From a virus: a stretch of DNA of 64,000 nt. The stretch covers positions 1 to 64,000 of IMG/VR virus record IMGVR_UViG_3300013132_005788. One strand, written 5' to 3'. The translations under genes and the position numbers were made by a program. Under the pieces are notes generated by a model that saw only the letters and a program-made list of their open reading frames with translations, searched no databases and was not told where the DNA came from. Positions 28,449-59,850 of this stretch are shown piece by piece (the first letter of the stretch is position 1; each line of letters starts with the position of its first letter).

Positions 28449-29057
28449 ATGCAGAATCTTTTGGAATATGAGGCTTTTTATGAGGCTAAAAAAGAGGATC
28501 TCTTTTTTTCCAGACATAATATGCCAACAAATTATGCTGATCGGGCAAGAACCTATGGAATTCCCGTTCCCGGTAACTCTTTTTTGACTAAGGTTTCCAA
28601 TTTTCTAGGGGGATTCGAGACGTATTTAGACAGATTTGCCTCCAGCTACTCCTCCGCTATGAAAGGCAGAAGGTCGGAAAGAAGGGGCGGGCCAGACACT
28701 GGAATAGAAAGCATATTTAAGCTTTTTTCGGTTGTCCCTGGTGTTCTGAAAAGAATATTTGGACCCTCTATTATGCAATATAAAGGAGCAGAAAAAGACG
28801 AGATAAGTTTGGAGCTAATGAGACACACTAATGATGTGTATATAAAGGACGAACTTCCTAAAATTAAAAATCAGAATGATCTGGCTAATAATTTAGCCAG
28901 TCTTTACCAGAAAGGTGGAGTTAAACCCAAACAAAATCCGGTACTAGATGAAATAGCTAGAAATAGAACGGCACTTTATTTTTCTAAAAATCCAAACGAA
29001 GTCCCCATGAGAAGTGGATCATTAAACCCAGTACCAGAAATAGCGACGATCTATTAA
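28449..29057 (+). CDS. Unknown protein with capsid-targeting-like N-terminus
   Basis: 202 residues. The N-terminus MQNLLEYEAFYEAKKED fits the leader shared by nine proteins here and recalls the T4 capsid-targeting peptide MKTYQEFIAEA, which is cut after a hydrophobic-x-Glu site by the prohead protease. The rest is helical, with a basic patch GRRSERRGG and a hydrophobic helix IFKLFSVVPGVLKRIF. No enzymatic motif seen. A GATATATA octamer lies 15 nt upstream. I infer a late, possibly internal head protein; no family is recognised. Confidence 0.5.
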   Translation: MQNLLEYEAFYEAKKEDLFFSRHNMPTNYADRARTYGIPVPGNSFLTKVSNFLGGFETYLDRFASSYSSAMKGRRSERRGGPDTGIESIFKLFSVVPGVLKRIFGPSIMQYKGAEKDEISLELMRHTNDVYIKDELPKIKNQNDLANNLASLYQKGGVKPKQNPVLDEIARNRTALYFSKNPNEVPMRSGSLNPVPEIATIY

Positions 29058-29073
29058 AATAAATTCCTAAAAA

Positions 29074-29838
29074 ATGAACAAGAAGTTTTCAACAGCAGTT
29101 AAAGAATCCAGAGAAAAACTGGTGGAACAAGAGATAATTCAAGAAAGAAACAAATATCTTGAATTCTCCAAAAAATATCACAAGAAACAAGGAGTTTCCG
29201 GCCCATTCGATAAAAAATTTGGGGGAGATAAAAAGAAGCAAGAGAAATACATGGAGGAACTTGCCGCAGCTTGGGAAAAATACAAAAAAAGCCACGGCAT
29301 AAAAAACAAGAGCAATAAGAAATTCGATTGGGTCAAGGAGGGAGTTATGGAATCCACACAAAAAGCTTCTGAATTAGCTAGCTCTATGATTGGTGACGGA
29401 GGTGATCCTAACTATTGCTTCGTAACCGTTTCTGATGATTATTATTTCACGAAGGACAACAAGAAAACTAAATATTCCGAAGCTTTCAGAGAAGCTCCGG
29501 TTGCTATCAAGACGACTCCAGATTTTGGTGCAGTTACGTTTGGACCTTTTATGAATATTGAAGAGTCTAAAGCATTTTCAAACAGCATAGAGCTGGATGA
29601 ATTGAATGGACCTAGAATGATTAAAATTGAGGACAGAAAAACTGGATTGGTTTTTGAAAAAGCATTGACATGCGTTCTTCAGCCAACTTGGTTTGAGGAG
29701 ACAAAAGAGGAAGAATCCACTTCTCACCAACATGATATGATGGGACAAGTTGGAGAGCCCGAGGATGAAGACACTGATTCAGAAACAGAAATAGAGGATG
29801 ATGAGGAAGACTTTGAATTCTCTGGAGACGAAGAATAA
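29074..29838 (+). CDS. Unknown charged protein with acidic tail
   Basis: 254 residues. Residues 1-100 are a highly charged helical region (KESREKLVEQEIIQERNKYL, AAAWEKYKKSHG). Residues ~115-210 form a compact domain (YCFVTVSDDYYFT, VTFGPFMNIEESKAF). The last ~45 are almost purely acidic (DEDTDSETEIEDDEEDFE). The acidic tail could mimic nucleic acid or bind a basic partner. It lies 16 nt after the leader-bearing gene and 4 nt before the next, so it is in the same transcript. Not recognised. Confidence 0.55.
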   Translation: MNKKFSTAVKESREKLVEQEIIQERNKYLEFSKKYHKKQGVSGPFDKKFGGDKKKQEKYMEELAAAWEKYKKSHGIKNKSNKKFDWVKEGVMESTQKASELASSMIGDGGDPNYCFVTVSDDYYFTKDNKKTKYSEAFREAPVAIKTTPDFGAVTFGPFMNIEESKAFSNSIELDELNGPRMIKIEDRKTGLVFEKALTCVLQPTWFEETKEEESTSHQHDMMGQVGEPEDEDTDSETEIEDDEEDFEFSGDEE

Positions 29839-29842
29839 AAAA

Positions 29843-30289
29843 ATGATTGAGAAAAGTTTTCAAAAAAATATACTGATACCGCTTCTAGAGCATTTTGTCG
29901 GAATCCAGGTTTTTGGAATAAAAATAGTGGATAATTCGGTGATATTCAAGACAGAGGTTGGATCGGATGGATTTGTATCCAGAAATATTAATGGTGATTG
30001 GGACATAAATATAGAAAATGAAGTGATATATGAGGTCGAGGACGAGCTAATGGATGTGTTAATACCAAAGGCGGGAAAAATGGAAATAGATGATTATTAC
30101 GAAAAACTAAATACGCTTCTTTCCCGTGATCTCAAATACAGATCTAGATCTCTGGTACTCCAAATTGTTAAAACCCTGGAATACTTTATATTAAATGCTC
30201 AGATAAGTCCAAGTAAGCCTATAAAAATTGGACCTTTTTTGGTCTATGCTGATAAAATAAAGGGTAGAAATATAATCTGTCTTAATTAA
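29843..30289 (+). CDS. Hypothetical protein
   Basis: Start at ATG 29843 (MIEKSFQKNILIPLLEHF), 4 nt past the previous stop, with an AAAAAA leader; an earlier in-frame ATG lies inside the preceding gene. The 148-residue product has a mixed alpha/beta pattern: a beta segment (VFGIKIVDNSVIFKTEV), an acidic strand (ENEVIYEVEDELMDVLIP) and a helical C-terminal half with basic residues (SRDLKYRSRSLVLQIVKTLEYF). No family recognised. Confidence 0.5.
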   Translation: MIEKSFQKNILIPLLEHFVGIQVFGIKIVDNSVIFKTEVGSDGFVSRNINGDWDINIENEVIYEVEDELMDVLIPKAGKMEIDDYYEKLNTLLSRDLKYRSRSLVLQIVKTLEYFILNAQISPSKPIKIGPFLVYADKIKGRNIICLN

Positions 30290-30296
30290 AAACAAA

Positions 30297-32246
30297 ATGG
30301 CTGGAATTAATCAATTATCTGATATTTATAAGAAAAAAGGTAAAGAGTTTGTTGATAAACTTTTTAACCAGATAGTAACCGTTAGTGAAAAACTAGACGG
30401 ATCTATTTTTTCATTTGAGAAAAATCTGATTGACGAGGATATCTCTTTCTATAAAAGGGATCAGGATAATCCTATCACCAGGATTGACCGAATATTGATG
30501 TCATACTATGAACGTCCGATAAATTATATCGGATCTCTTTCTCATGATATTAAGAGGCAAATTCCTAATGGATGGAGGTTTGGTATGGAATATTTCTGTG
30601 ATAATAAACCAGTAAATATCGCTTATCAGAGAGAGCCTAAGAATGGGCTTGTTTTAACACATATTATCGTTAAGGATGAACTAGGAAATCCGGTGAGAAC
30701 TATAGTGGAAAAAAAAGAGCTTGATCACTGGGCAGACTTGCTGGAAGTTGAAAGATCTCCTATGATCTTTCAGGGCAGGCTAAACGAGGATCAGAAGTTA
30801 AAAATCCTAGAATACCTATCCACATCATATTTAGATATACTCAAAAAATATAAGACTGATAGCTTTGTTAGGTTCATGGTCTCTATATTGAACCCTGAAC
30901 TTGAAAAAAGTGCCCTTAATGATTCACTGGATTCCCCTATCGAGGGAGTAGTCTTCAGATTTGGTGATTTAGCAGGAACTGGTGAAAGCTATGTTGCTAA
31001 AATAGTAGACCCTGTTTTTTTGGAAATAATTAGAGAGAGAAAAGTAACCTCTAAAGATAATCTCCCAAATGACATATATTCACTTGCTCTAATAGATGTA
31101 ATGAATTTCGTTCTTGAAAAAGGAGTGGATTCTTTTGAGATCAAAGGAGAAGAACCCGAGTCAAGATACATTAGTTTTGTCTTTGATGTTTTCCTTAAAT
31201 TTGTTGATCTGCACGGAGACAAATACAAAGGAGTAGATTTTAACGAACCGGAATATTTCAAGAGAGAAGAATTCAAGATCAATAAAGAACTTATTTTAGA
31301 TCAGGATATTAGAGAAAAAATAGAAGAAGACGAGAGTTACGAAACTCTTCTACAGATCCTTCTATCCGCCTTTAGAAAATTAAAGAAAAAAGCACATGGG
31401 TTCTTCACCGAGGGGGTAGTTGAGCAATTTAATCTATTAATCAGAGATATTGCAGATTATATAAATGCTAGAAAAGCAGAGCCTGTCCAAGAATCGGGGA
31501 TTCCAACTTTTGTTCAATTTAGAAAAAGCTCTGCTGTTTTCTCCCCTATCAACGAGAGTGAAAATGAGCCAGATGAAACAACTGAATCTGATGAAGATGA
31601 TGAAAATACTGGCGCAAAAGAAGACGAAAAAACCAATGAGTTTTTTGCTTATGATGATTTTAAGAAGGTAATTAAAACTCCAAAAGAAAAAAGAAAATCC
31701 AAGAAGTTAAACGAAAACGCAGAGAAAGTCAATCTTATCATAGGAAAATTCCAGCCGTTTAGCAATGGTCATTTAAAGATGGCTATGAGAGCCAAGAAAG
31801 AAAATGGATATCCTAGCGTACTTTGTGTGCACCATCCAGGGACAACATCTAAAAAATACCCATTTAGTCAGGAAACTGTTGAGAAAATGCTCCTCGGGAT
31901 TAAGGAAGAGCACTCCGATATTATCAGGGAATCATATGTGATTAATAAAGATTTTTTGGATGAGGTGTTTGAAAATCTTCCCGAAACTTTCTTCCCAGTC
32001 AGCATATGTGTGGGTGAAAAAAATTATTCAAATCTATATCTTCAGAGAGATTGGTCCAAGAATAACGGAACCTTAATCAATGAAGAAATTAAGCTATTTA
32101 AAACCCCGACCTGGAATTCAGGTAGAGATATCAGAGATTTCATCAGGAATGAAAACTTTTCACAATTCAAAAAATCCGTACCTAAAAGTGTAGGCCTTTT
32201 GTATAATCAATTTGTTACGGAAATTAGGGAAACCGGGGATATATAA
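30297..32246 (+). CDS. Fusion: ligase-like nucleotidyltransferase + NMNAT-like adenylyltransferase
   Basis: 649 residues in two parts. Residues 1-~240 carry covalent nucleotidyltransferase motifs: EKLDGS (I, Lys32), WRFGMEYF (III-like, ~93-100), IEGVVFRFG (IV, ~215-223) and VAKIVDP (V, Lys235), as in RNA/DNA ligases. A helical region (~240-400) and an acidic linker (~421-449) follow. Residues ~475-649 match NadM/NadR-type cytidylyltransferases: GKFQPFSNGH at 483-492 (the usual H/TxGH, here SNGH) and SGRDIRDFI at 608-616. The first half would seal nucleic acid ends through a Lys-AMP intermediate; the second would adenylylate NMN or a related substrate. Substrates are inferred. Confidence 0.75.
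   Translation: MAGINQLSDIYKKKGKEFVDKLFNQIVTVSEKLDGSIFSFEKNLIDEDISFYKRDQDNPITRIDRILMSYYERPINYIGSLSHDIKRQIPNGWRFGMEYFCDNKPVNIAYQREPKNGLVLTHIIVKDELGNPVRTIVEKKELDHWADLLEVERSPMIFQGRLNEDQKLKILEYLSTSYLDILKKYKTDSFVRFMVSILNPELEKSALNDSLDSPIEGVVFRFGDLAGTGESYVAKIVDPVFLEIIRERKVTSKDNLPNDIYSLALIDVMNFVLEKGVDSFEIKGEEPESRYISFVFDVFLKFVDLHGDKYKGVDFNEPEYFKREEFKINKELILDQDIREKIEEDESYETLLQILLSAFRKLKKKAHGFFTEGVVEQFNLLIRDIADYINARKAEPVQESGIPTFVQFRKSSAVFSPINESENEPDETTESDEDDENTGAKEDEKTNEFFAYDDFKKVIKTPKEKRKSKKLNENAEKVNLIIGKFQPFSNGHLKMAMRAKKENGYPSVLCVHHPGTTSKKYPFSQETVEKMLLGIKEEHSDIIRESYVINKDFLDEVFENLPETFFPVSICVGEKNYSNLYLQRDWSKNNGTLINEEIKLFKTPTWNSGRDIRDFIRNENFSQFKKSVPKSVGLLYNQFVTEIRETGDI
32238..32245 (+). promoter_or_regulatory. 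GATATATA late-promoter-like octamer
   Basis: Exact octamer overlapping the end of the ligase fusion gene and 18 nt before the metallopeptidase ATG; it would start the peptidase/VWA/MoxR transcript. Confidence 0.5.
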
Positions 32247-32263
32247 CAAAAATAATCTCCAAA

Positions 32264-33061
32264 ATGCAGGGAAAAAGAATTGCTTCCTGGAATGATTTCC
32301 AGCTTTTTGAACAAGTCTATCGGGACTTGGAAGACGACAATCAAAAAATTTCACAAGAAGCTTTTAGAAAAATAAGATCCGCTTGTTTTAAAGTAATGGG
32401 TCAATATCCTTTTTTTAGAAGCGTACTAAGCAGCCTTATTATAAAGGAAAATAGAAATCTCCGATATAAAACTATGGCGACCGACGGAGCTAGTATACAT
32501 TACGATCCTGGATTTGTACTAGATCAGCCGCTTGATGTGGTAACTTGGGTGATTGTCCATGAAATAATGCACAATGTTCTAAAGCATTTCGATAGAAAAG
32601 AATTAGATGCTGATACTGTAACTTGGAACATGGCAGCGGATTATGCTCTTAATCAGTTAATCACTTATAATAAATCCAACCCCTCTCTTCCTCCAACCAA
32701 AGCTGACTATGAGGCTGCAATGGGAAAGGGAGGATTATTTCCAGGGTGTGGACAAACCAAGGGAGACGACAAATTTGAAAATTTAACAGCCGAACAGATT
32801 TTCAAGATTCTACTTAAAAATCCACCGGTCTGTCCTCAGTGCGGAAAAAATCCTTGTGAGTGTCAGAAGCCTACTCCACCTCCACGTGATCCTGATCCAT
32901 TACAGGTCGGAGATATCATATACGACGAGAAAACGGACGAGTATGGCGTGGTAACTTCTTTTGACGAAGCAACAGGTGAGGTGACTTTGGATCCTATGGA
33001 TAAAGATGCTGTTAGGGAAGAAGTTAAGAGACAGTATGAAGAAAAATACGGAACCGTTTAA
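32264..33061 (+). CDS. DUF2201-like metallopeptidase
   Basis: 265 residues. The zinc-protease motif HEIMH lies in WVIVHEIMHNVLKHFD near residue 100, followed by WNMAADYALNQLI, the pattern of the putative metallopeptidase domain that pairs with VWA domains (DUF2201 type). A small Cys cluster near residue 195 (CPQCGKNPCECQKP) could bind a second zinc. The C-terminal ~50 residues form a small beta domain (DPLQVGDIIYDEKTDEYGVV). In bacteria this domain occurs with VWA and MoxR ATPases, exactly the next two genes here. Family and catalytic motif are clear; the substrate is unknown. Confidence 0.75.
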   Translation: MQGKRIASWNDFQLFEQVYRDLEDDNQKISQEAFRKIRSACFKVMGQYPFFRSVLSSLIIKENRNLRYKTMATDGASIHYDPGFVLDQPLDVVTWVIVHEIMHNVLKHFDRKELDADTVTWNMAADYALNQLITYNKSNPSLPPTKADYEAAMGKGGLFPGCGQTKGDDKFENLTAEQIFKILLKNPPVCPQCGKNPCECQKPTPPPRDPDPLQVGDIIYDEKTDEYGVVTSFDEATGEVTLDPMDKDAVREEVKRQYEEKYGTV

Positions 33062-33078
33062 TAAAATATAAAAGCTGG

Positions 33079-34125
33079 ATGAAAACGAAAATAGATAGAG
33101 TAATCAGAATCAGACTTAAGGATTCTGAAAATAAAGGACCAGGAGATCCCGAAGTTGGAGACCCAAAAACAATATATCTAGAAAAAGATCCTCCTGAGAA
33201 TGGAGATGGCCCTGGCGGAACTGGTGATTTTCCTACAGGCGATAGAGAGGGTGAAGGGGAAGGACAGGGTGGAGGACCTATTCCAAATCCATCGAATACG
33301 TATTCAAGGGATAAGGCAGAATGGGACAGACAGATGGAAGAGGATGTTGATTATGGCAGGGATAAAACCAAAGTTACCTGGGGAGAAGTACTTCCTGCAG
33401 GATCACTTGGTGACACTGACATGGGAAAATCCCAAATATCCTCCAAAATGGATGAATTGGTTCAAAGTGCAATGGCGCAGAATCTGGATAATGACCCAGT
33501 TTCAAAAAGAATCGCCAAAAGATTAGAGGGTCTTAAGGCCCCGATCGTTGATTGGAAATCTGAACTTGCCAGATTTATAGAAAAAATTGTAACCAAGACT
33601 CAATATAAGCTTCCTTCTAGAAGATTTGGTTCCCAAAGAACCGCTCAATATGGATATAAGAGAACAAAAGAGCAGACAGAATGTATTGTGGTTGCCATAG
33701 ACACGTCTGGATCAATATCAGATAAAATGGTTCATAGATTCTTGAGTGAGACCCAGTCAATAGTTCAATCGTTTGATCCAAAAGATCTCTATGTTATATT
33801 TTGTCACACTAGTATATACAGGGTAGACCATTATTTACCTGGTGAAAAAATATCCGATGGAGAGCTAAAGACCGGGGGAACGGAATTTTGGCCACCTTTC
33901 AAATGGGTAGAACAGAATCTTTTGGATGAGGGAATATCTCCTTCCGTTTTCATATATTTTACAGACGGAGAGGCATCTTTCCCAAGTACCGGGGATTACT
34001 CCATAGGTGACTATCTAGACAGAGTTATTTGGGTGGTTCTTGGATTTGGACAAGCCAGTGACGTTCCTGTTCCATGGGGCAACAGAATGGACATAGTTCT
34101 TCCAAATAAATCTTCTGAACTATAA
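33079..34125 (+). CDS. VWA-domain protein (DUF2201 C-terminal type)
   Basis: 348 residues. An N-terminal low-complexity Gly/Asp/Pro/Glu region (~20-85) precedes a helical segment and a von Willebrand A domain with a MIDAS metal site: CIVVAIDTSGSIS (DxSxS, ~residues 210-218), a Thr in KTGGTEFWPP, and an Asp in YFTDGEASF. The DUF2201 family often has metallopeptidase and VWA in one chain; here they are two adjacent genes 17 nt apart. VWA partners usually present substrates to a MoxR ATPase, encoded next. Confidence 0.8.
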   Translation: MKTKIDRVIRIRLKDSENKGPGDPEVGDPKTIYLEKDPPENGDGPGGTGDFPTGDREGEGEGQGGGPIPNPSNTYSRDKAEWDRQMEEDVDYGRDKTKVTWGEVLPAGSLGDTDMGKSQISSKMDELVQSAMAQNLDNDPVSKRIAKRLEGLKAPIVDWKSELARFIEKIVTKTQYKLPSRRFGSQRTAQYGYKRTKEQTECIVVAIDTSGSISDKMVHRFLSETQSIVQSFDPKDLYVIFCHTSIYRVDHYLPGEKISDGELKTGGTEFWPPFKWVEQNLLDEGISPSVFIYFTDGEASFPSTGDYSIGDYLDRVIWVVLGFGQASDVPVPWGNRMDIVLPNKSSEL

Positions 34126-34133
34126 GATATATA
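34126..34133 (+). promoter_or_regulatory. GATATATA late-promoter-like octamer
   Basis: Exact octamer beginning right after the VWA gene's stop codon and 22 nt before the MoxR ATG. It would give the ATPase and the small leader-bearing genes behind it their own late transcript. Confidence 0.55.
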
Positions 34134-34155
34134 GTCTATAAAAAATAAAAAAGAA

Positions 34156-35667
34156 ATGAAGAGAATATCTAATTTTAACCAATTCGTAAACGAATCATAT
34201 CTTTCCAAAGCAATGCAGACAGTTAAGAACTGGGCTTCTTCCTTTATGAAGAGCCTGCAGGATGGATTGGTAAGAATGATTCCGTCCGGTTTAAAAGCAG
34301 GAAAACCTGTTGCAGTCCTATTTGATGGAGAAAAAGGACCTATTGCTGACCAGCTATTAAAATTCTATAAAGGAACTCCATATGCAGAGGCAATAGAAGA
34401 AGCTAAGGTTCCTATGGAGTATCCAAGACAAGACGACGTTTTGAATGTTGATGTTAACGAGCTTAAGAAAATGCTCAAAACCAGACTGAAAGCAGTATTG
34501 AGAGCTAAGGGCGACGAAAAAGAGGTTTTAACTATTAAGCCATTCTTTATATTCGGAGCACCTGGAATCGGTAAAACAATGATTGTTGCTCAAGTACTTG
34601 ATGAGTTGAGCGAAGAATTAGGATTACCACATAGATTAAATCTACACAACGTTGATGGAGAATTTGCTGAGCCAGTCGACTTTGCCGGTGTTCCTTCCGT
34701 TGTTGATGTAGAACAGCCAAGTGCAGAATCCCCTTACGGAAAAGGCGTAACAAGATCAAACGTATCTGTTAACCTCCTTCCTGCTGATAATGGACCGGGA
34801 GATGCAGGCGGTATAATCTTTATTGATGAGATCAACCGTATGGATAAAGAGGTTGTTAAAGTATTCATGAAATTAGCCCAGAGTAGAAGACTTGGGGCAT
34901 CTTATACTATTCCACCAAAATGGTATATTGTAGCTGCTGGTAACAGAAGGGAAGATGATCCATCAACAGTTAAAGACCTTGGGACTGCACTTAGAGATAG
35001 ATTCTCTGTAGTAAACTATGTTCCTTCCACTAAATCATGGATTAAATATGTTTCTAGCGATCCTAAGCTTAAGACCGTGGTTTTACCTGAGTTGGTTGAC
35101 TTCTTTGAATTTAGCGAGGATTACTTCCATAATCTAGATCCTTCTAAAGGCCTAGTAAAATTCCCTACGCCTAGAGCGTGGGTTGATGCTTCTTATGGTC
35201 TTAAGAGAAGAATGGAAGAACTCGAGGAAGAAGGAAAGGGTAGTGTCACTATGGACGAAATTAAAAAGCTGTTCCAACTTGAAGTTGGAGCTGATGCAGC
35301 TCAAGCATTTGTTGATTTCTATAGATTGGTATCAGAGATCAACATTAAGGATGTTGTTAAAGTTTTTGAAGATCCAGAAAACGCACCATTGCCTAAGAAA
35401 ATGTCAGCCGGAGGAAGATCTTATGATCCTGCTCATGCACATGCTTGGATTTGCGCAGTTATTAAGAAAAGTAGAGAATTGCAGATTACCACAAAAGAGG
35501 TTAAGAATTTCACTGATTATTTAATTAGAATGGGATCGCCAGAACTTGGAGCTGCTGCTTTAACATCATTCACAAAATCTCATCCTGAATTAAGAAAAAA
35601 TCCAGAGGCGATAGAAATTCTAGCTGAATTAGCAGAAGAATGGAGCGCTGATGTAGATCTAGAGTAA
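34156..35667 (+). CDS. MoxR-type AAA+ ATPase with capsid-targeting-like leader
   Basis: 503 residues. Walker A is GAPGIGKT (~residue 135), Walker B GIIFIDEINRMD (~225), then a sensor-1-type segment YIVAAGNRRED and an arginine-finger region LRDRFSVVNYVP, as in MoxR/McrB-like AAA+ proteins. MoxR ATPases remodel proteins with a VWA partner; here the VWA and metallopeptidase genes lie just upstream. The N-terminus MKRISNFNQFVNESYLSK matches the nine-protein leader, unusual for an ATPase and possibly meaning that it is packaged in the head. It ends with TAATG, overlapping the next start. Confidence 0.85.
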   Translation: MKRISNFNQFVNESYLSKAMQTVKNWASSFMKSLQDGLVRMIPSGLKAGKPVAVLFDGEKGPIADQLLKFYKGTPYAEAIEEAKVPMEYPRQDDVLNVDVNELKKMLKTRLKAVLRAKGDEKEVLTIKPFFIFGAPGIGKTMIVAQVLDELSEELGLPHRLNLHNVDGEFAEPVDFAGVPSVVDVEQPSAESPYGKGVTRSNVSVNLLPADNGPGDAGGIIFIDEINRMDKEVVKVFMKLAQSRRLGASYTIPPKWYIVAAGNRREDDPSTVKDLGTALRDRFSVVNYVPSTKSWIKYVSSDPKLKTVVLPELVDFFEFSEDYFHNLDPSKGLVKFPTPRAWVDASYGLKRRMEELEEEGKGSVTMDEIKKLFQLEVGADAAQAFVDFYRLVSEINIKDVVKVFEDPENAPLPKKMSAGGRSYDPAHAHAWICAVIKKSRELQITTKEVKNFTDYLIRMGSPELGAAALTSFTKSHPELRKNPEAIEILAELAEEWSADVDLE

Positions 35668-35957
35668 TGGTAAAAATCAAAAGATATACTGAATATGTGG
35701 GAGAGGGCCAGAAAAAAGATTCTGGCCTTTTTTCTACTGTAGATAAGGTAAAGGAAGCTAGAGACAAGCTTCATGAGGCTTCTATGGAATGTAAAAATGA
35801 TCCTAGAATTGATGAGAGCAAGATAATGGAGTGCTACGAGGGTTTGAATAAATACTATGAGAATCTTTCTATGCAGGCTCCATATGTTGACACTATTAAG
35901 TATGGAAAGATTCCAAACACCTCAATGAATATATTGACCAAAAAAGGAGACAGCTAA
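35667..35957 (+). CDS. Small protein with capsid-targeting-like leader
   Basis: 96 residues; its ATG shares the final A of the MoxR stop codon (TAATG), so the two are coupled. The N-terminus MVKIKRYTEYVGEGQKK fits the shared leader with Tyr in both aromatic positions. The body is helical (STVDKVKEARDKLHEASMECKN, then ECYEGLNKYYENL). No family recognised. Position suggests a partner or co-packaged protein of the MoxR ATPase. Confidence 0.5.
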   Translation: MVKIKRYTEYVGEGQKKDSGLFSTVDKVKEARDKLHEASMECKNDPRIDESKIMECYEGLNKYYENLSMQAPYVDTIKYGKIPNTSMNILTKKGDS

Positions 35958-35958
35958 G

Positions 35959-36492
35959 ATGAAACACCTAATGTTATTTGAAGATTTCCTATTCGAAGAC
36001 GGATATGGTAAAAACTTTTTCTTCCCTGAGAAGAGAGAAAAAGCAATTTATTATTATTTCAAGATTAACGAGGGAGAGAGCCAGAAAGGATTTATTCTTA
36101 AGATCTCTAAAAACTGCGTTTTAATGACTCCCGAAGGATCAGAAAATTCTTATGGATGCCTTAGAATAGAACCTATTTCTATAGCCACAATGGATGATCA
36201 TTTAGCTAATGAGACGGATTTTAAATTCAGAGAGGATGATATGATAGAGATCGAGGAGGATGAATTTCCTAGAATCTATAAAATTGTCTCCGAAGCAATA
36301 CAGAATTATCTACAAAAGAATCCAAAGGTCACTAAGATATACGATGAGATGCTCCTTAATGTTCCAATGTCAAGAAAGGAATATAAAAACGATGTCGAAG
36401 CCATGATATCTGGGTGGAGCTACGGAAAATGGTCCATTCAAGATGGCCCAGAAAAAAAGATCCTAATATATCAAAAAAGAGATCACGAATAA
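35959..36492 (+). CDS. Unknown protein with capsid-targeting-like leader
   Basis: 177 residues, starting 1 nt after the previous stop. The N-terminus MKHLMLFEDFLFEDGYG is one of the best leader matches (F-x-x-F-L-F-E). The body has a beta segment (QKGFILKISKNCVLMTPEG), an acidic segment (FREDDMIEIEEDEFPRIYK) and a helical C-terminal part. Overlaps the next ATG by one base (TAATG). No family recognised. Confidence 0.5.
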   Translation: MKHLMLFEDFLFEDGYGKNFFFPEKREKAIYYYFKINEGESQKGFILKISKNCVLMTPEGSENSYGCLRIEPISIATMDDHLANETDFKFREDDMIEIEEDEFPRIYKIVSEAIQNYLQKNPKVTKIYDEMLLNVPMSRKEYKNDVEAMISGWSYGKWSIQDGPEKKILIYQKRDHE

Positions 36493-36797
36493 TGTCCCGT
36501 ATTTTAAGTTATAGCGGCTTTATTAATGAATCAAGGATTGCTATTGCTTGGACCGGAAAGAATGAAACTAGGGACTCTATATTGAGTTTTATAGGGGAAA
36601 AGGAAAAGGTCACAATGATAGAGCTTGATGAATTCCTGCTTTCCCTTCCCGAGGAAAAAGGCAAAAAGGCGGATTTCAAATGGATCAAGAGAAACAAACA
36701 TTTAGTCAAAAGACATATAGACGAAAATGGACCCAACTTTTACACTCTAACTTCACTAGGAAAAAGAATTCTTAGATTATCCAGGGTTAATGATTGA
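36492..36797 (+). CDS. Small protein with capsid-targeting-like leader
   Basis: The start is ATG 36492, coupled through TAATG to the previous stop; an earlier in-frame ATG lies inside that gene. The 101-residue product begins MSRILSYSGFINESRIA, matching the leader. The rest looks like a small basic winged-helix-type fold (MIELDEFLLSLPEE, then KWIKRNKHLVKRHIDENG, then FYTLTSLGKRILRL), which would suit DNA binding, though I cannot assign a family. Confidence 0.5.
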   Translation: MSRILSYSGFINESRIAIAWTGKNETRDSILSFIGEKEKVTMIELDEFLLSLPEEKGKKADFKWIKRNKHLVKRHIDENGPNFYTLTSLGKRILRLSRVND

Positions 36798-37352: not shown

Positions 37353-37360
37353 GATATATA
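37353..37360 (+). promoter_or_regulatory. GATATATA late-promoter-like octamer
   Basis: Exact octamer 23 nt after the terminator and 4 nt before the ATG of another leader-bearing gene. Being directly behind a terminator supports a promoter role. Confidence 0.6.
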
Positions 37361-37364
37361 AAGA

Positions 37365-37577
37365 ATGAAGAATTTAATGAGCTTTGATCTCTTCCTAATC
37401 GAATCTGCTAATATTGAAAAATACGAGGCACCTAATAGCCCGGTAAAGATACCCGCCGGCGACAAAGGATTTGAGACAGTTCAGAAGCACTATAATAGAT
37501 TTATGTGGACACTGAACGATCTGAAGAAAAGGAAGAAAAAGAAGTTAAATAAGACTTCAATTCAAAAACAGCAGTAA
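37365..37577 (+). CDS. Small basic protein with capsid-targeting-like leader
   Basis: 70 residues. MKNLMSFDLFLIESANI is a near-perfect leader, ending in Leu-Ile-Glu, the T4 prohead-protease type of cleavage site (L/I-x-E). The remainder has an aromatic-rich helix (FETVQKHYNRFMWTLNDL) and a very basic tail (KKRKKKKLNKTSIQKQQ) suited to binding DNA in the head, much like T4 internal proteins. A terminator and GATATATA lie directly upstream, so it has its own transcript. Confidence 0.55.
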   Translation: MKNLMSFDLFLIESANIEKYEAPNSPVKIPAGDKGFETVQKHYNRFMWTLNDLKKRKKKKLNKTSIQKQQ

Positions 37578-39353: not shown

Positions 39354-39746
39354 ATGAAAACAAAAAACCTATTTAGAGACCTAAACACAGAAATCAGAGA
39401 GATGTTTGACCTGGTAGAGCTTTCTGATCTACAGAAAGGAACATCAGACTTCTTCGTAAATGTTTTTAATGAAGTTGCTTCTCGCGAGAAAATAATGGTT
39501 AACGTACCAGGATTTTCCAAAGATGATCTAAAAATTTCTCTTGATGAAAAGGGATATCTTAAAATATCAGGAGAAAAAGAAGTGGAGGGTAAAACCAGAA
39601 AGATCCAAAGATCCTATTACATCCAGCATCTTAATTCATTAGATACCGATAAAATACAAGCGAAGGTAGAAAATGGGCTACTGGTCATCAATCTGGGAAA
39701 AAAGGATGAATCTAAGAAAGGGCCTAAGGAAATTATTATTCAGTAA
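39354..39746 (+). CDS. Hsp20 / alpha-crystallin small heat-shock protein
   Basis: 130 residues with a complete alpha-crystallin domain: IMVNVPGFSKDDLKISLDEKG (strand/loop typical of Hsp20), YLKISGEKEVEG, RSYYIQHLNSLDTDKIQAKVENGLLVINL. The final NGLLVINLGKKDE gives the conserved G-x-L hallmark, though the usual I-x-I tail anchor is only weakly seen as EIIIQ. Hsp20 holds unfolding proteins; small Hsps also occur in T4-like cyanophages. The gene sits between two terminators, so it is a single-gene transcript. Confidence 0.88.
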   Translation: MKTKNLFRDLNTEIREMFDLVELSDLQKGTSDFFVNVFNEVASREKIMVNVPGFSKDDLKISLDEKGYLKISGEKEVEGKTRKIQRSYYIQHLNSLDTDKIQAKVENGLLVINLGKKDESKKGPKEIIIQ

Positions 39747-47053: not shown

Positions 47054-47776
47054 GTGAACTACCTAGAAATAAATTGGCCAACTAACCCCTTAACCGGACA
47101 ACCCTACACAAGCTCATTCGGCAGAACGTGGGTCTGGAACGGTTGTGGATGGGAAGCAACGTGTTGTCCCCCTGCATCATGCAAATATTATGATGGACTG
47201 GATGTCACATTTACCTTTTCTGGTGCTGGTGGAGTGTATTATAATCTAGCATTTAACTATTCTGGTGACGATGGAAACGGAAACCCAATCTTCGAGTTTG
47301 AAGCATCTAATGTTTTTTCTTTCACCATAGAATACAACACATCGATATCTAAATGGGAGTTTCTTTTTGGCGGATCACCAGTAGCTTATTCTTCTGAGTT
47401 ATATGGAAGTTATGGAACTGAATGGTTTGAGTATTCTCCATCCAATTTGGAATATCTGACCACTACCTGTGGGGCTACATTCCCAGTTCTTTGCATGGAA
47501 GTGGTTTCAGAAGTAAGTGTACCCCAGTTCAATCTCCTAACCGCGGGATATTCTCCCGGTGAGGTATCAGTATTTGTTCCTATAGAGGGGGATCCGATAA
47601 TGTGGGATGGTTCCCAATGGAGTGGGGCCTTGGGATCATCGGGTAACGTTTTAATATCCATTTCCGGATCTGAAAGTATACCGCCAGTAGGATCTTGGAA
47701 TATAGTGGATCTTAATTACCCTGAATCGGTCACATCGGTAACCACTACTCTTGGTCCATGTAATTTTGTTGGATGA
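47054..47776 (+). CDS. Fibre/adhesin with N-terminal CCPP domain (paralogue 2)
   Basis: 240 residues from a GTG start 17 nt after paralogue 1; no ATG fits. The N-terminal NWPTNPLTGQPYTSSFGR then TWVWNGCGWEATCCPP parallels paralogue 1. It contains one beta-sandwich unit (NYSGDDGNGNPIFEF, FTIEYNTSISKWEFLFGG) where paralogue 1 has three, and the same kind of C-terminal unit (ISGSESIPPVGSW). The pair looks like tandem duplication with expansion or loss of units. Its stop overlaps the next ATG (ATGA). Confidence 0.55.
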   Translation: MNYLEINWPTNPLTGQPYTSSFGRTWVWNGCGWEATCCPPASCKYYDGLDVTFTFSGAGGVYYNLAFNYSGDDGNGNPIFEFEASNVFSFTIEYNTSISKWEFLFGGSPVAYSSELYGSYGTEWFEYSPSNLEYLTTTCGATFPVLCMEVVSEVSVPQFNLLTAGYSPGEVSVFVPIEGDPIMWDGSQWSGALGSSGNVLISISGSESIPPVGSWNIVDLNYPESVTSVTTTLGPCNFVG

Positions 47777-47973
47777 TTATATTCAGATTCATAAAAGCTA
47801 TTCTGAGATATGTATTTTTTGGTACGGATCTTCCTGATCCTGAGATTAATTACAGACGGAGTATTTGTGGATCTTGTGAATATAATATAGATAGAAGGTG
47901 CTCTCAGTGTGGATGTTATATAAAATACAAGACGAGAATGTCAACAGAATCTTGTCCTGAAAATAAATGGTAA
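47773..47973 (+). CDS. Small zinc-ribbon protein
   Basis: 66 residues. A short hydrophobic N-terminus (FIKAILRYVFFG) is followed by CGSCEYNIDRRCSQCGCYIKYK and a final Cys in STESCPENKW. The spacing (CxxC ... CxxCxC ... C) is that of a zinc ribbon frequently found in small phage proteins ending in CP-x-x-K-W. Coupled to the fibre gene through ATGA. Role unknown. Confidence 0.6.
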   Translation: MIIFRFIKAILRYVFFGTDLPDPEINYRRSICGSCEYNIDRRCSQCGCYIKYKTRMSTESCPENKW

Positions 47974-47975
47974 AT

Positions 47976-48149
47976 ATGGCTTGTGGATGTTCAGATGACA
48001 ATAAAAATAAAACGGCCGGACAGGGTATCCCAAAGGTATCAGAGACTGCTAAAAAAATAGCGGAAAGAATATCAGCTAAATCTGAGGTTATCCGTAGAAT
48101 ATGGAATAACTCCAAGCAGGAAAGCTATATTAATAGAGTTAGAAAATAA
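47976..48149 (+). CDS. Small hypothetical protein
   Basis: 57 residues from ATG 47976 (MACGCSDDNKNK); an ATG three codons earlier overlaps the previous stop and is less likely. After a CGC motif and a Lys/Asn linker it forms a basic helix (AKKIAERISAKSEVIRRIWNN). It is the last gene before the glycosyltransferase. No family recognised. Confidence 0.45.
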   Translation: MACGCSDDNKNKTAGQGIPKVSETAKKIAERISAKSEVIRRIWNNSKQESYINRVRK

Positions 48150-48190
48150 CTCAAGTAACAAAATTATCTCATCACTCTATAATATGATGA

Positions 48191-50941
48191 ATGAAAAGAG
48201 TGCACGTTCCCAATGTCTCCGGACACAGTCTTAATAAGATAAACCAGGATATTAAAAAATCTCTGGACCAACATTTCTCCTTCGTTGATGGATCACCTGC
48301 TGACATTTTGGTTCAGCACTATGTTTCTGGAATCGGTACCTCCAAGAAGTATAATAGAAAAATACTAATACAGCCCATAGACGGAACCCGGATTAACCAG
48401 GGAATGGTTAAAAGTATAAATCAATTTGACCTCATATTAGCTCCTGCTGAAGCATCCAAGAAAATAATGGAGTCTTCCGGCGTGATTAAGCCGATTAGGA
48501 TTATTTCCAACTATTATGACGATGATCTCTTGGATATAAAGAGCAATTTCTTCGATGTCAGATACAGCTCTAAAAAATATACATTCTATTCAGAAACCAC
48601 TGGAATCAAGAGAAAGAATGTTGATAATCTCCTCCGATATTTTTTAGATGAATTCTCAGGAAAGCCAGAAGCCGAAAAAGTCAGACTTGTCCTAAAACTT
48701 TCATCCGGCGATAAAACTAAGATGAGCACTCTGGAAAAAATCAGGAATTCGTATCAGAATGCTCCAGAAGTCGATATTTATAATCAGTGGCTTGATGATG
48801 CTGATCTTAATTCATTGAGAAGGGGAATGGATTGTTATGTTATGCTCTCCTATATGGAGGGATTTTGCATACCTCTGCTTAATGCCGCGGTTTTAAAGAA
48901 GGATATAATATGTCTTAATTCCACGATTAGTGGATATATGGATTTTATTAACAAAGGAAATTCAATCTTGGTTCCTGTTAAGAAAATCCCAATAGATCAA
49001 AAACACGAAAGTCTTTTGATCTATGATAAGACATCAACATGGGAGGAACCCATATATCCTGAATATCAGAGAGCCCTTAGAAAAGCCTATACTGGAGAGT
49101 ATCAATTCGATAAAGTCGACGATTTTTCCGACTTCTCCAAACGATCCGTAATGGAGAAATATAGAGAAGAGATAGAAGGTAGAGACTCGTTGGGCTGCTG
49201 TATATCACAGGAATCCAGTAGAGATGCTTACTCTGCTGTGTGTAGGGATCTGGAAAGAATAGGTGTGGACGGATGCGATTTTTTTGAGTATTCCAAAATA
49301 ATTAGATCTCATATAAAAAGGAGCGGAATTCCAAGAAATTCTTTCGTCAATAATATTATACAAACTCATATTGATGTTTTAAAAACAAGGGAATCGTCCA
49401 AACTGGAATATTCTCTGATCTGCGATGATGATGTGATAGTGATCAGGGATGACGAGAAAATTCTTGACATTGTGAGAAAAGCTCCTGAGGATTGGGACAT
49501 TATATTTCTAGGAGGTATGAATCATTATCATCCTCCTTTTATTATCGATGATGATTTTTACAGGTGCAGATTTTCATTTAATCCACATTGTTATCTGATT
49601 AAGACATCCTTTATTCCAGTTGTTTTGTCGGAGCTAGAAAAAAGAGAAGCTGAATGTGATGTGATATTTGCCAAAATGCAAGAATCTGGAATTGGAAACT
49701 GGTATGGATTAAAAAGAGATATGATCATTCCATCCGGCAGGAATGGAACCAAATATATTAGTCTCTTTCCGCCCGCATATGCACAGGTTAAAAATTTGGA
49801 AAGAAAAAGAACCGGGGATTTAAGGATCTCCAGAATATCTTCAGATTCCTCTATAAAAGGAATAAAATATGTTGCGGTCAGAGGAAGTTCCGGATATGCA
49901 AATTGTGCAAAGGATTATATTATTGGAATAAGCGATTCCGGGATTCCAGTTACACCGCATCTTCTTAAGCATAATGATTCTTCCTACCTTACTGGCGATA
50001 AAAATTCCAGAGTTAACTCACTAAAAGACGACGGAATGGATTACGACGCCTTAATTATTCATCTTTTGCCGGATCTCTGGAAGAACGAGGTGGATACTCA
50101 TGGCGCAAATGTTCGCGATAAGATAGGATATTTTGCATGGGAAGCGGATAAAATTCCTGATGAGTGGTCCGAAGGATTTGATGTGGTTGATAAAATAGCT
50201 GTTCCGTGTGAATGGAACAGAAAGGTACTAATAGATTCAGGAGTCACAAAACCTATTTGTGTTATACCCCATATTTACGATGAAATCGTTCCCAAATCAT
50301 TTGGTATACCAGGATACAATGGCGAATTTGTGTTTTATACCATAGGACAATTTCTGGAAAGAAAGGGCATAGAGGACTCGGTTCGTTCGTATTTGGGAGC
50401 ATTCACATCAGAGGATAATGTTTGTCTTATAGTTAAAACGGAAGGTAGGGAATATAATAAATCAGATAGAGAAATAGTGAGAAAAGAGATAGAAAAAATC
50501 ATAAGTGAATTTCCAAATCCCGCCAAAGTTATTACTATCGTGGATGAAATTTCAGACGGTAACATTGCATATCTGCACTCAATTGGGGATTGTTTTATTT
50601 CCCTTTTTAAAGCGGAAGGATGGGGATTATCTCTGTTTGATGCCACGATAAAAGGAACACCGGTCATTTGTACTGGATATGGTGGATCGCTTGATTTCAC
50701 CTGTGGCCCTTATGTTAATTATGAGATTGGTCCAATAACAGATCACTATAAGTGGTTCAACGAATCACAGAAATGGGCTTATCCGGACATTTCCCGTGGA
50801 TCTCTTATCATGAGAGATGTCTACGAAAATATAGACTCATATAAAAAAATAGCTGAAGATCACTCTGCGATAGTTAAAGAGAAATTTTCCACTAAAAAAA
50901 TCATAGAAAAATTTATAGGGTTCATAAAAGAAAAACCATAA
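48191..50941 (+). CDS. Three-domain glycosyltransferase (GT4 - GT25-like - GT4)
   Basis: 916 residues. Part 1 (~1-320) is a GT-B glycosyltransferase with the family-4 signature near EGFCIPLLNAA (~222). Part 2 (~333-540) resembles a GT25-type LPS glycosyltransferase: DISQ-like start (CCISQESSRDAY), then LICDDDVIVI (~410) with a DxD-like metal motif, WDIIFLGG, and NPHCYLIKTSF. Part 3 (~558-916) is a second GT-B unit with KAEGWGLSLFDATIKGTPVICT (~806 on) as sugar-nucleotide site. One polypeptide could build a short glycan on a virion protein, phage DNA or host surface. Acceptor and sugars cannot be told. Confidence 0.75.
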   Translation: MKRVHVPNVSGHSLNKINQDIKKSLDQHFSFVDGSPADILVQHYVSGIGTSKKYNRKILIQPIDGTRINQGMVKSINQFDLILAPAEASKKIMESSGVIKPIRIISNYYDDDLLDIKSNFFDVRYSSKKYTFYSETTGIKRKNVDNLLRYFLDEFSGKPEAEKVRLVLKLSSGDKTKMSTLEKIRNSYQNAPEVDIYNQWLDDADLNSLRRGMDCYVMLSYMEGFCIPLLNAAVLKKDIICLNSTISGYMDFINKGNSILVPVKKIPIDQKHESLLIYDKTSTWEEPIYPEYQRALRKAYTGEYQFDKVDDFSDFSKRSVMEKYREEIEGRDSLGCCISQESSRDAYSAVCRDLERIGVDGCDFFEYSKIIRSHIKRSGIPRNSFVNNIIQTHIDVLKTRESSKLEYSLICDDDVIVIRDDEKILDIVRKAPEDWDIIFLGGMNHYHPPFIIDDDFYRCRFSFNPHCYLIKTSFIPVVLSELEKREAECDVIFAKMQESGIGNWYGLKRDMIIPSGRNGTKYISLFPPAYAQVKNLERKRTGDLRISRISSDSSIKGIKYVAVRGSSGYANCAKDYIIGISDSGIPVTPHLLKHNDSSYLTGDKNSRVNSLKDDGMDYDALIIHLLPDLWKNEVDTHGANVRDKIGYFAWEADKIPDEWSEGFDVVDKIAVPCEWNRKVLIDSGVTKPICVIPHIYDEIVPKSFGIPGYNGEFVFYTIGQFLERKGIEDSVRSYLGAFTSEDNVCLIVKTEGREYNKSDREIVRKEIEKIISEFPNPAKVITIVDEISDGNIAYLHSIGDCFISLFKAEGWGLSLFDATIKGTPVICTGYGGSLDFTCGPYVNYEIGPITDHYKWFNESQKWAYPDISRGSLIMRDVYENIDSYKKIAEDHSAIVKEKFSTKKIIEKFIGFIKEKP

Positions 50942-51160
50942 ACCATTCAAATACAATTGAATTTATGAGGAAATTGACGACCTTATTTTTTACCGATTTC
51001 TTGTGTGGATGGTATATAAAAACAGAATGAAGGAAATACTGGATTTAGTGACTCAAATATTTTTTCTTATACCTGGGAATTCCTCAGGTTTTTTTATCTA
51101 GAACATATTGAAAAAGATACCATACACCCGCAGTATTTCTGTGCTTAAAAAAACTATAAA
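50942..51160. other. 219-nt intergenic leader before nrdA
   Basis: Holds an AT-rich GGTATATAAAA tract (51011-51021), a 24-codon frame starting at ATG 51027, and the hairpin terminator at 51070. The nrdA ATG follows a CTATAAA sequence at its immediate 5' side. No tRNA or riboswitch fold is evident to me. Confidence 0.5.
51070..51096 (+). terminator. Rho-independent terminator
   Basis: ACCTGGG-AATTC-CTCAGGT pairs (7 bp with one G-T) and is followed by seven T residues. It ends the glycosyltransferase transcript, or a short transcript started at the GGTATATA tract, before nrdA. Confidence 0.75.
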
Positions 51161-53536
51161 ATGGAAGTAATTAAAAGAGACGGATCAAAAGAAAAAGTGA
51201 AATTGGACAAGATCTTAAATCGTATTAAAAAACAATGCTATGGACTCAATATGGACTATATAGAGCCAATGGAGATAGCAAAAAAAGTTATCAATGGACT
51301 TTATGATGGAATAAGCTCAGTTGAGTTGGATGTTTTGGCCGCAGAGACTGCGGCTTCACTTACACCCACCCACCCGGATTATTCTCTGCTCGCTGCAAGA
51401 ATTTGTGTGACATCACTTCACAAGAAAACACCCAAGCTTTTTTCACAGGTTATAGAATCACTTTATCATTATGTTGATCCTAAGACGGGACTTAAAGCAC
51501 CTCTAATTTCTGAAGATGTTTACGAGATAGTGAAAAATAACTCCAAGGAAATAGATTCAACTATTATTTATGACAGAGATTTAGATTATGATTATTTCGG
51601 ATTTAAGACCCTGGAAAAGTCATATCTTCTTAAACTTAACGGTCAAGTCGCCGAGAGACCTCAGCATATGATAATGAGGGTTGCCATTGGAATTCATAAG
51701 AATGATCTCGAAAGTGCATTTAAAACTTATGATCTGATGAGCCAGGGATTCTTTACACATGCCACACCGACCCTCTTTAATGCGGGAACACCCAGACCTC
51801 AATTGTCTTCGTGCTTTCTCTTAACTATGTCGGACGATTCTATTCAGGGAATTTATAAGACATTATCAGATGTGGCCCAGATCTCTAAAAATGCTGGTGG
51901 AATAGGATTATCTGTTCATAATATCAGAGCAACCGGATCATATATCAAGGGGACCAATGGAACATCAAATGGTTTGATCCCGATGTTAAAGGTGTTCAAT
52001 GAAACGGCTAGATATGTTGATCAAGGAGGCGGAAGAAGAAAGGGATCATTTGCGATCTACCTTGAACCATGGCACTTTGATGTTGAAGATTTTCTGAATC
52101 TCAGAAAGAATCACGGAAAAGAAGAAATGAGAGCTAGAGATCTTTTCTTGGCTCTTTGGGTCCCAGATCTTTTTATGGAAAGAGTTAGTGACAATGGAGA
52201 ATGGACTTTATTTTCCCCTGATGAAGCACCAGGTCTTGCTGATGTGTACGGAACAGAATTCACTACTCTCTATGAAAAATATGAATCAGAAGGGAAGGGG
52301 AGGAAAAAAATCAAAGCACAGGATTTATGGTACAGAATCATAGAGGCTCAAATAGAAACTGGGGTTCCGTATATGCTTTATAAAGACGCAGCAAATTCAA
52401 AGTCAAATCAGAAAAATCTTGGAACGATTAAATCATCTAATCTCTGCACAGAAATTATAGAATACAGCTCGCCTGATGAAAGTGCAGTTTGTAATTTAGC
52501 ATCCATTGCTCTTCCAAAATTTGTTGTTAATAGAGGAAGAAAAGCCTATTTTGATTTTGATGCTCTTAAGGAAATAGCTTACACAGCCACAGTGAATTTG
52601 AATAGGGTCATAGATGTTAATTACTATCCAACTCTTGAGACGAAAAATTCTAATATGAGACACCGTCCGATAGGTCTGGGCGTTCAGGGACTGGCCGACA
52701 CTTTTGCGATTCTAAGAATGCCATTCGATTCACAGGCAGCTAAGGATCTAGATCGGGAAATATTTGAATCCATTTACTATGGGGCTATGGAAGCTTCAGT
52801 TGATCTGGCTGAAAAAGAGGGACACTACGAGTCTTTTAAAGGATCTCCTCTTTCCGAAGGTAAATTCCAGTTTGATCTTTGGGATGTTAAGCCATCTGAC
52901 CGATGGAATTGGGAACTTCTGAGAAAGAGAGTGATCAAATCAGGAGCTAGAAATTCTCTGTTGCTTGCTCCAATGCCTACTGCTTCTACTTCCCAAATTA
53001 TGGGAAACAATGAGGCTTTTGAAGCCTTCACCTCTAACATATACGTGAGAAAAACCCTCTCTGGAGAATTTCCGGTTGTCAATAAACATCTAGTGAGAGA
53101 TCTTGACAGAATAGGTATCTGGGACGACAATATGAGGAACCAAATCATCTTAAATAACGGCTCTGTACAAGCCATACCGGAGATTCCGAATGATATCAAA
53201 GAAATCTATAAGACAGCATGGGAAATGAGCCAGAAAGTGATTATAGACCATGCTGTGGAGAGAGCACCATTCATATGTCAGAGCCAAAGTATGAATCTCT
53301 TCTTCAGCGATGCCAATTTTGCAAAGCTATCTTCTGCCCACTTTTATGCTTGGGGAAAAGGACTAAAGACCGGATCATATTATATTAGGACCAAGGCGGC
53401 CGCCACTGCGATTAAGGGATTGGGCATAGACCTGAGCGAATCTAAGCCAGTAGAGATTAAGACGACCGATGAAAATCTACAGGATCTTGCTTGTAGTTTA
53501 GATAATCCCGAGGCATGTGAGGCATGCGGATCTTAA
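51161..53536 (+). CDS. nrdA: Ribonucleotide reductase class Ia, alpha subunit
   Basis: 791 residues, the usual length. An N-terminal ATP-cone ([20 protein letters not shown]) indicates allosteric control by ATP/dATP. Catalytic residues are visible: Cys in LSSCFLLTM, the N-x-C-x-E motif in [11 protein letters not shown], and the third Cys in [11 protein letters not shown]. The tail ends CEACGS, a CxxC pair that relays electrons from thioredoxin or glutaredoxin. With NrdB (43071) it converts NDPs to dNDPs for phage DNA synthesis. Confidence 0.95.
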
Positions 53537-54872: not shown

Positions 54873-55301
54873 ATGGTTTTAAGATTCACACAATTTGCGG
54901 AAAGAATAAACGAGGGAGCTATCCCAATTTACAGAGGAACATCCCTTCAGCCAGAAAGAAACATTAAAGGAACTTCTATTATGAGCGAATTAAAGGCCGC
55001 TTTGGAACAAATAAAAATGGGACAAATATCTGAAGTTTCCGTTGTTGCAGGAATACCTACTCAAGGAAAAAGAGCACCGGAGTATTTAAAAGATGTGTTT
55101 GCTGCAGCAGGAGTAAATTCTCCGGAGGATATGTACGATGCTAGGGGACAAGAGAGAAATATATTTGTAGATTCTGAATTTATCGTGAAAGGCTTAAATC
55201 CAGAGAAGGGAACTATAATCGGAACCCCATATTCTCTTAGAAGAAAGGGAATAGAGATCGAGATAGATCCAATGGATGTACAGGAAATATTCTATAAGTA
55301 A
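54873..55301 (+). CDS. Unknown protein with capsid-targeting-like leader
   Basis: 142 residues. MVLRFTQFAERINEGAI fits the leader with one extra residue between the second aromatic and the Ile-x-Glu site. The body is alpha/beta (SELKAALEQIKMGQISEVSVVAGI, PEYLKDVFAAAGV, IFVDSEFIVKGL) and ends with EIDPMDVQEIFYK. The sequence IYRGTSL resembles the start of ADP-ribosyltransferase strands, but the required catalytic Glu context is not seen, so I do not claim it. The stop abuts the next gene. Confidence 0.5.
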   Translation: MVLRFTQFAERINEGAIPIYRGTSLQPERNIKGTSIMSELKAALEQIKMGQISEVSVVAGIPTQGKRAPEYLKDVFAAAGVNSPEDMYDARGQERNIFVDSEFIVKGLNPEKGTIIGTPYSLRRKGIEIEIDPMDVQEIFYK

Positions 55302-59723: not shown

Positions 59724-59850
59724 AGGTGTTGCTGCAATTATCTCTATGGGATTATTCTTGGCTGCAGTGTCTCTCACTTTCTTTTTTCTTTGGATTGATA
59801 ATTTCTTAGGTATGGTAGTTAATTACATATCAGGAAGAAGGAGAAGATGA
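59710..59850 (+). CDS. 46-aa single-span membrane protein
   Basis: A short gene overlapping both neighbours (14 nt before, 4 nt ATGA with dnaJ). The product [20 protein letters not shown] continues with [10 protein letters not shown], one clear hydrophobic helix, and ends in Arg-rich SGRRRR. Tight overlaps argue that it is translated. A small holin-like or DnaJ-associated membrane peptide is possible; nothing decides it. Confidence 0.5.

Follow-up and report, generated by a model that had tools for sequence, protein, structure and literature searches.

A MoxR ATPase, VWA protein and zinc metallopeptidase gene set with head-targeting-type leaders in a virus contig

Why would a phage carry genes for a zinc metallopeptidase, a VWA protein and a MoxR AAA+ ATPase side by side, and at what point in infection would their products act? 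The question is raised by a 64,000-nucleotide stretch of DNA (the window; GC content 37.5%) from the 69,328-base IMG/VR virus record IMGVR_UViG_3300013132_005788, which contains such a triad at positions 32264-35667. The answer that we favor, with a probability of about 0.52, is that a large T4-like phage has recruited the set as cargo for its head: the genes would be expressed late, and the ATPase and the peptidase, which in this lineage have gained short T4-style head-targeting tags, would be packaged in the head and act after ejection.

A conserved triad split from a two-gene set

The three genes are intact and adjoin one another on the plus strand, with gaps of 17 and then 30 nucleotides (nt); their coordinates are given in Table 1. 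An earlier note, made from the letters of the window alone, had read them as a HEIMH peptidase, a VWA protein and a MoxR ATPase, and this reading held: the open reading frames (ORFs) lie where it had placed them, the products match Pfam and PHROGs families, and the motif residues are intact. In Pfam, the peptidase matched DUF2201_N, a putative metallopeptidase (E=3.8e-18), the VWA protein matched the VWA-like domain DUF2201 (E=3.1e-16), and the ATPase matched AAA_5 (E=5.9e-9). In an alignment of 15-16 relatives of the split type described below, residues H99, E100, H103 and H108 of the peptidase were invariant, as were the metal ion-dependent adhesion site (MIDAS) of the VWA protein (D208-T-S210-G-S212, T268 and D296) and, in the ATPase, the intact Walker A and B motifs (G134-x-P-G-I-G-K140-T141, D224 and E225) and N263.

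In PHROGs, the ATPase matched phrog_1297 (E=7e-48), while the other two proteins matched a single family, phrog_1314, the peptidase as its front half (E=2.5e-25) and the VWA protein as its back half (E=6.3e-38). The triad is therefore a phage set of two genes, one of which is here divided in two. Peptidase and VWA form one chain in LR756500, N4-like phages, RaK2, 121Q, GAP32 and most other listed relatives. The order peptidase, VWA, ATPase, with separate starts, was found in ~15 related uncultured IMG/VR contigs, and the triad is thus a conserved unit. A sequencing error as the source of the split is ruled out by these contigs, in which the gaps are 0-47 nt. The split-type peptidase also has a C-terminal extension (VGDIIYDEKTDEYGVV...) that is absent from the six fused relatives inspected. 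Some sets hold additional copies: in L057 a second VWA copy sits between the genes, and the first set of G004 has two VWA genes.

PHROGs (for phrog_1314) and many RefSeq phage records (NC_019526, NC_019401, NC_023719) label the peptidase-VWA family "HNH endonuclease"; we found this label unsupported, the domains found being DUF2201_N and VWA. From three-row alignments, AlphaFold gave poor models for the peptidase (mean pLDDT, 49.8) and the ATPase (50.7), which were kept out of fold searches, and sequence searches of solved structures with the triad returned only weak AAA or chance matches. No relatives of the peptidase were found in a scan of cellular genomes, and no Pfam match to VMAP, the third component of MoxR-vWA ternary conflict systems, was found among the neighbors scanned at 28449-36492.

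The suggestion that a phage copy of the set is unusual did not survive comparison with other phages. Matches to the ATPase were found in 705 phage records, and matches to the RaK2 protein in which peptidase and VWA are fused in 541. In N4-like phages, gp24 (an AAA+ ATPase) and gp25 are listed among the conserved proteins of a panproteome table (PMC7650795), and Iyer et al. (2021) described, for jumbo phages of group 2.2, a MoxR-vWA pair to which a metallopeptidase is fused (PMC7824862). MoxR/VWA/peptidase sets in phages are not rare; what is unusual here is the gene split, together with the head-targeting-type leaders.

Leaders and a shared promoter-like element

The T4 internal protein IPIII starts with MKTYQEFIAE, in which residues 4 and 7 matter most for targeting, and residues 8 and 10 for processing (PMC9026906). 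The ATPase of the window starts with MKRISNFNQFVNE followed by S (its first 14 codons encode MKRISNFNQFVNES), and the peptidase has a leader of its own, MQGKRIASWNDFQLFE, which the earlier note had overlooked. We scored such N termini with a strict pattern, M.{1,9}[FYW]..[FY][ILVMF].E, which tests IPIII positions 4, 7, 8 and 10, and with a relaxed form in which as many as two additional residues may precede [ILV]xE. In T4, the strict pattern was present in 2 of 249 ORFs, both times as the MKTYQEFIAE leader of IPIII and IPII. This contig had it in 5 of 67 ORFs, compared to 0.4 expected from residue shuffles, and its relatives in 6/89 (G001), 15/310 (G004), 8/227 (G005), 13/159 (G007), 9/231 (G008) and 22/628 (LR756500); shuffle means ranged from 0.4 to 2.8 across the tested genomes. 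Within the split group, leaders that fit [F/Y]xx[F/Y][ILV]xE were found on 16 of 16 ATPases (strict), 13 of 15 peptidases (relaxed) and 0 of 15 VWA proteins. The capsid-targeting-like leader that had been noticed on the ATPase is thus far above chance and kept in every orthologue, and the peptidase leader fits the T4 pattern only with one or two extra residues ahead of [ILV]xE.

Judged by its codons, the leader is under purifying selection: in six informative close pairs, the proportion of nonsynonymous differences (pN) was 0-0.03 and that of synonymous differences (pS) 0.3-1.05, rough values from few codons (for example, pN 0.00 and pS 0.79 for L057/L155, and pN 0.00 and pS 1.05 for L062/L063). 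In peptidases with a longer N terminus, the extra segment closes with a second [LI]NE/A site (the slash marks the presumed cut), right where similarity to the window protein starts again; conservation of protease sites would lead one to expect this. LR756500 has a near-fixed leader, MKYIxEYEEF[IL]xE, on ~20 proteins, the fused peptidase-VWA protein included (MKYIKSYENFIFE). Other leader-bearing proteins include endolysin-like and OmpA-domain proteins, which fits cargo used at entry. The relaxed pattern occurs in up to 27 ORFs in G004, on many unrelated proteins, and leader or leader-like genes of the window include those at 28449, 35959, 37365, 54873, 57571 and 61185.

A protease that could remove such leaders is encoded in the window's relatives. 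T4-type gp21 (PF03420) was found in LR756500, G003, G005 and G007, and T4-type gp23 (PF07068) in these four and in G006. Near its N terminus, gp23 of G005 and G007 contains SLNE/SAGAYN, which resembles the ends of the leaders in form and which we infer to be a cut site.

In a tree of the ATPase, a branch with 100/100 support had all leader-bearing copies on one side, separating them from the copies of RaK2 type and from most of the other fused ones. Second triads, in the order ATPase, peptidase, VWA, are present in G004 (47757-51249) and G005 (67825-71186), again with leader-like N termini on the ATPase and peptidase only. They are partly degenerate, the VWA protein lacking D-x-SGS in G004 and the peptidase lacking HExxH in G005. 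G007 has a short remnant with ATPase and VWA similarity at 121667-122107.

The leader genes also share a promoter-like element, GATATATA, which occurs at 13 sites in the window versus 4.8 expected, a number reached in 0 of 100 shuffles; sites include 3484, 15726, 20433, 28426, 32238, 34126, 37353, 54843, 57540 and 61164. Plus-strand sites lie mostly 10-30 nt 5' of genes, among them tail fiber genes (15752, 20445 and 44511) and the gene at 3510, as well as the leader or leader-like genes at 28449, 32264, 34156, 37365, 54873, 57571 and 61185. By comparison, 13 of 14 DNA/RNA-metabolism genes, classed partly by eye, are without it. Leader and element co-occurred with an odds ratio of 14.6 (p 4e-18 with four genomes pooled, a value made too small by the kinship of those genomes). 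The element precedes gp21 in G005 and G007, and in nearly all relatives it or a close variant is located upstream of the peptidase gene (at 20-26 nt) and of the ATPase gene (at 22-33 nt); the VWA gene is never preceded by it. The late element of T4, TATAAATA, was not enriched in the window (11 sites versus 7.6). Probably, GATATATA serves this group of phages as late promoter, replacing TATAAATA. The "late-type control" proposed earlier is thus backed, by association only: the element precedes the genes for the peptidase and the ATPase and is common to virion genes.

Proposed head packaging and its alternatives

Head packaging of the ATPase and the peptidase is well supported by sequence, if unproven. 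The earlier note had offered, as possible roles, remodeling of the head or tail, disarming of a host system after injection, and maturation of virion proteins; the leader data favor packaging in the head. The set would be transcribed late from the GATATATA elements common to head and tail-fiber genes. The leaders of the ATPase and the peptidase would then bind the prohead core, like that of T4 IPIII, and a gp21-type protease would remove them after [ILV]xE; for both of these events the sequence evidence is strong. With moderate support, the trimmed proteins would remain in the head until they leave it together with the DNA. Once ATP is at hand, in the newly infected host, the MoxR ring with the VWA protein as substrate adaptor may unfold or remodel a host target early in infection, and the zinc peptidase may cut the remodeled target. 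In this form (an ATP-driven unfoldase, a zinc peptidase and a VWA adaptor that are preloaded in the head, injected and act at once on host defense, transcription or envelope) the proposal is tentative, and we hold it at somewhat less than even odds.

T4 IPII and IPIII (PMC9026906) share with the window the leader pattern [YF]xx[FY][ILV]xE and, through the window's relatives, a gp21-type protease, but they are small internal proteins, whereas the cargo predicted here is an ATPase and a peptidase. N4 gp24/gp25 belong to the same families, phrog_1297 and phrog_1314, with the ATPase accompanied by peptidase-VWA; in N4-like phages, however, peptidase-VWA is one chain, with no leader in the fused copies inspected, whereas the window has two genes with the ATPase last. 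Jumbo phages RaK2, 121Q/phAPEC6 and GAP32 have the same domains next to virion genes, but with no leader, a fused peptidase-VWA protein and a separate branch in the ATPase tree. The phAPEC6 virion list includes gp265c, an "ATPase" of 49.52 kDa, with six peptides (PMC7247149), which matches the MoxR protein of 121Q. The MoxR protein of 121Q, a close relative of phAPEC6, is 49.51 kDa, and the two phages agree in gene order and in the masses of neighboring products (gp262c, 25.02/25.03; gp267c, 35.96/35.95; thymidylate synthase, 35.51/35.51). For Staphylococcus phage UFV_DC4, a MoxR-like ATPase has been discussed as co-packaged (PMC10638138). The archaeal virus ATV likewise has a MoxR-VWA pair, p618/p892, of which p618, a major component of the virion, binds a VWA protein and acts in tail development (PMC4124505); ATV is nevertheless an unrelated virus with no peptidase described, and its pair is assigned to extracellular tail growth. 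RavA-ViaA of Escherichia coli, in which RavA has triple-helical and LARA domains, also joins a MoxR ATPase to a VWA partner, but has no metallopeptidase and a cellular role.

Several observations weigh against packaging and action after ejection. Packaging, cleavage and injection in this lineage are all read from sequence. The VWA protein, formerly part of the peptidase chain, has no leader and would have to enter by binding its partners, which is conjecture. No clear leader is present on the LR756500 ATPase or on the G008 peptidase-VWA protein, and genes matching the leader pattern were no more frequent in the 10 kb around the capsid gene than elsewhere (2/18 versus 11/211, and 0/13 versus 17/153). 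The window contig, a 69-kb fragment, gave no gp21 match, and no gp23 was seen there either. In the virion data, the phAPEC6 list contains likely carry-over enzymes (thymidylate synthase, RecA-like and single-stranded DNA-binding proteins) and the peptidase-VWA partner was undetected (PMC7247149); the phAPEC6/121Q-type ATPase itself has no leader. Outside the leader group, N4-like phages, RaK2 and 121Q carry the set without leaders, and inside it nest two fused leaderless copies, L074 and L076, from genomes with gp21 and gp23. Since these are leaderless sets in T4-like phages with gp21 and gp23, packaging is not needed for every version. In G011, the one of the two genomes that was examined, leaders were found on 3 of 149 ORFs versus 0.7 expected, with no general use, so that, on these counts, loss of the leader on the set accompanies scant leader use in the genome.

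The leader, promoter and gp21 evidence would also fit if the ATPase and peptidase acted inside the prohead, before or during DNA packaging, to remodel or cut core and shell proteins alongside gp21, with copies in the mature head as bystanders. The part played by ATV p618 in tail development (PMC4124505) and the proposal of Iyer et al. that the jumbo-phage pair serves virion assembly and peptidolytic processing of structural proteins (PMC7824862) point the same way. Such a head-maturation machine nonetheless seems less likely to us: T4 builds its gp21/gp23 head without any MoxR set, the two relatives just described have gp21 and gp23 with a leaderless fused version, and leaders on many unrelated proteins are a better fit to cargo than to a dedicated maturation enzyme. 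AAA+ enzymes need ATP, and T4 leader cargo is delivered into the host. For these reasons, we favor action on a host target after ejection, at close to even odds, over head maturation or assembly in the cytosol.

In the latter case, a virion-assembly role of the kind published as a proposal for group 2.2 jumbo phages, the set would be a cytosolic chaperone or protease that folds or processes tail or neck proteins; the leader would then not serve packaging. The pair does adjoin structural genes, without a leader, in 121Q, RaK2 and GAP32, and mere contact might explain why the ATPase of phAPEC6 is associated with virions (PMC7247149). This explanation is less probable still, as it does not account for a T4-type leader on two of the three members in 15-16 relatives or for leaders on many unrelated proteins. 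Least likely of all, to our judgment, is that the leader is a different address tag, directing proteins to a membrane or to a compartment of the phage, for example, and resembles the T4 sequence by convergence. Head targeting being a sequence-based proposal, and the missing enrichment near the capsid gene, speak for such a tag; the match at the four T4-critical positions, the [ILV]xE end, the presence of gp21 in relatives and the promoter common to gp21 speak against it, as does a leader-like N terminus, alike by position, two genes downstream of the capsid gene in some relatives.

Neighboring genes and implications

Further leader-bearing genes follow the triad (Table 1). Elsewhere in the window, the leader protein at 54873-55301 (like that at L032:8385-8870) has a conserved IP[IL][YF]RGTS after the predicted cut and is without a family match; it is perhaps ADP-ribosyltransferase-like, as T4 Alt is. 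Upstream of the triad, positions 30297-32246 encode a protein of 649 amino acids that may be a ligase/nucleotidyltransferase fusion: its N-terminal part is RNA-ligase-like (E=7e-4, which falls short of the Pfam cut-off), and its C-terminal part resembles a cytidylyltransferase. The window also encodes a DnaJ-type protein (59847-60869; phrog_14336) and a small heat-shock protein of the Hsp20-like kind (39354-39746); the J-domain of the former and the identity of the latter were assigned by eye.

Table 1. Features of the triad and the genes that follow it (positions in the window; aa, amino acids)
Feature	Position	Strand	Remarks
Zinc metallopeptidase gene (DUF2201_N, HEIMHxxxxH)	32264..33061	+	265 aa; N-terminal leader IASWNDFQLFE
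VWA gene (DUF2201), complete MIDAS	33079..34125	+	348 aa; without leader
MoxR AAA+ ATPase gene, phrog_1297	34156..35667	+	503 aa; last of the triad
GATATATA promoter-like element	32238..32245	+	~26 nt ahead of the peptidase ATG
GATATATA promoter-like element	34126..34133	+	upstream of the ATPase gene
ATPase leader codons, MKRISNFNQFVNE	34156..34194	+	predicted to target the head and to be cut between E13 and S14
Small protein, leader RYTEYVGE	35667..35957	+	directly 3' of the ATPase gene; ORF at the same place in L002
Protein with leader LFEDFLFE	35959..36492	+	syntenic in relatives
Protein with leader MSRILSYSGFINES, read from internal ATG	36492..36797	+	syntenic in relatives (MNNKILSYEEFVNES)
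Small protein, leader SFDLFLIE	37365..37577	+	GATATATA at 37353

The MoxR-VWA-peptidase set is conserved in N4-like and many large phages, and we found no functional experiment on it in the literature. The leaders described here point to a concrete, testable place for the set, in the virion interior and the first minutes of infection. They also indicate that T4-type head targeting is wide in uncultured T4-like phages, reaching up to two dozen proteins per genome, and the leader pattern offers a simple sequence-based way to list candidate injected proteins.

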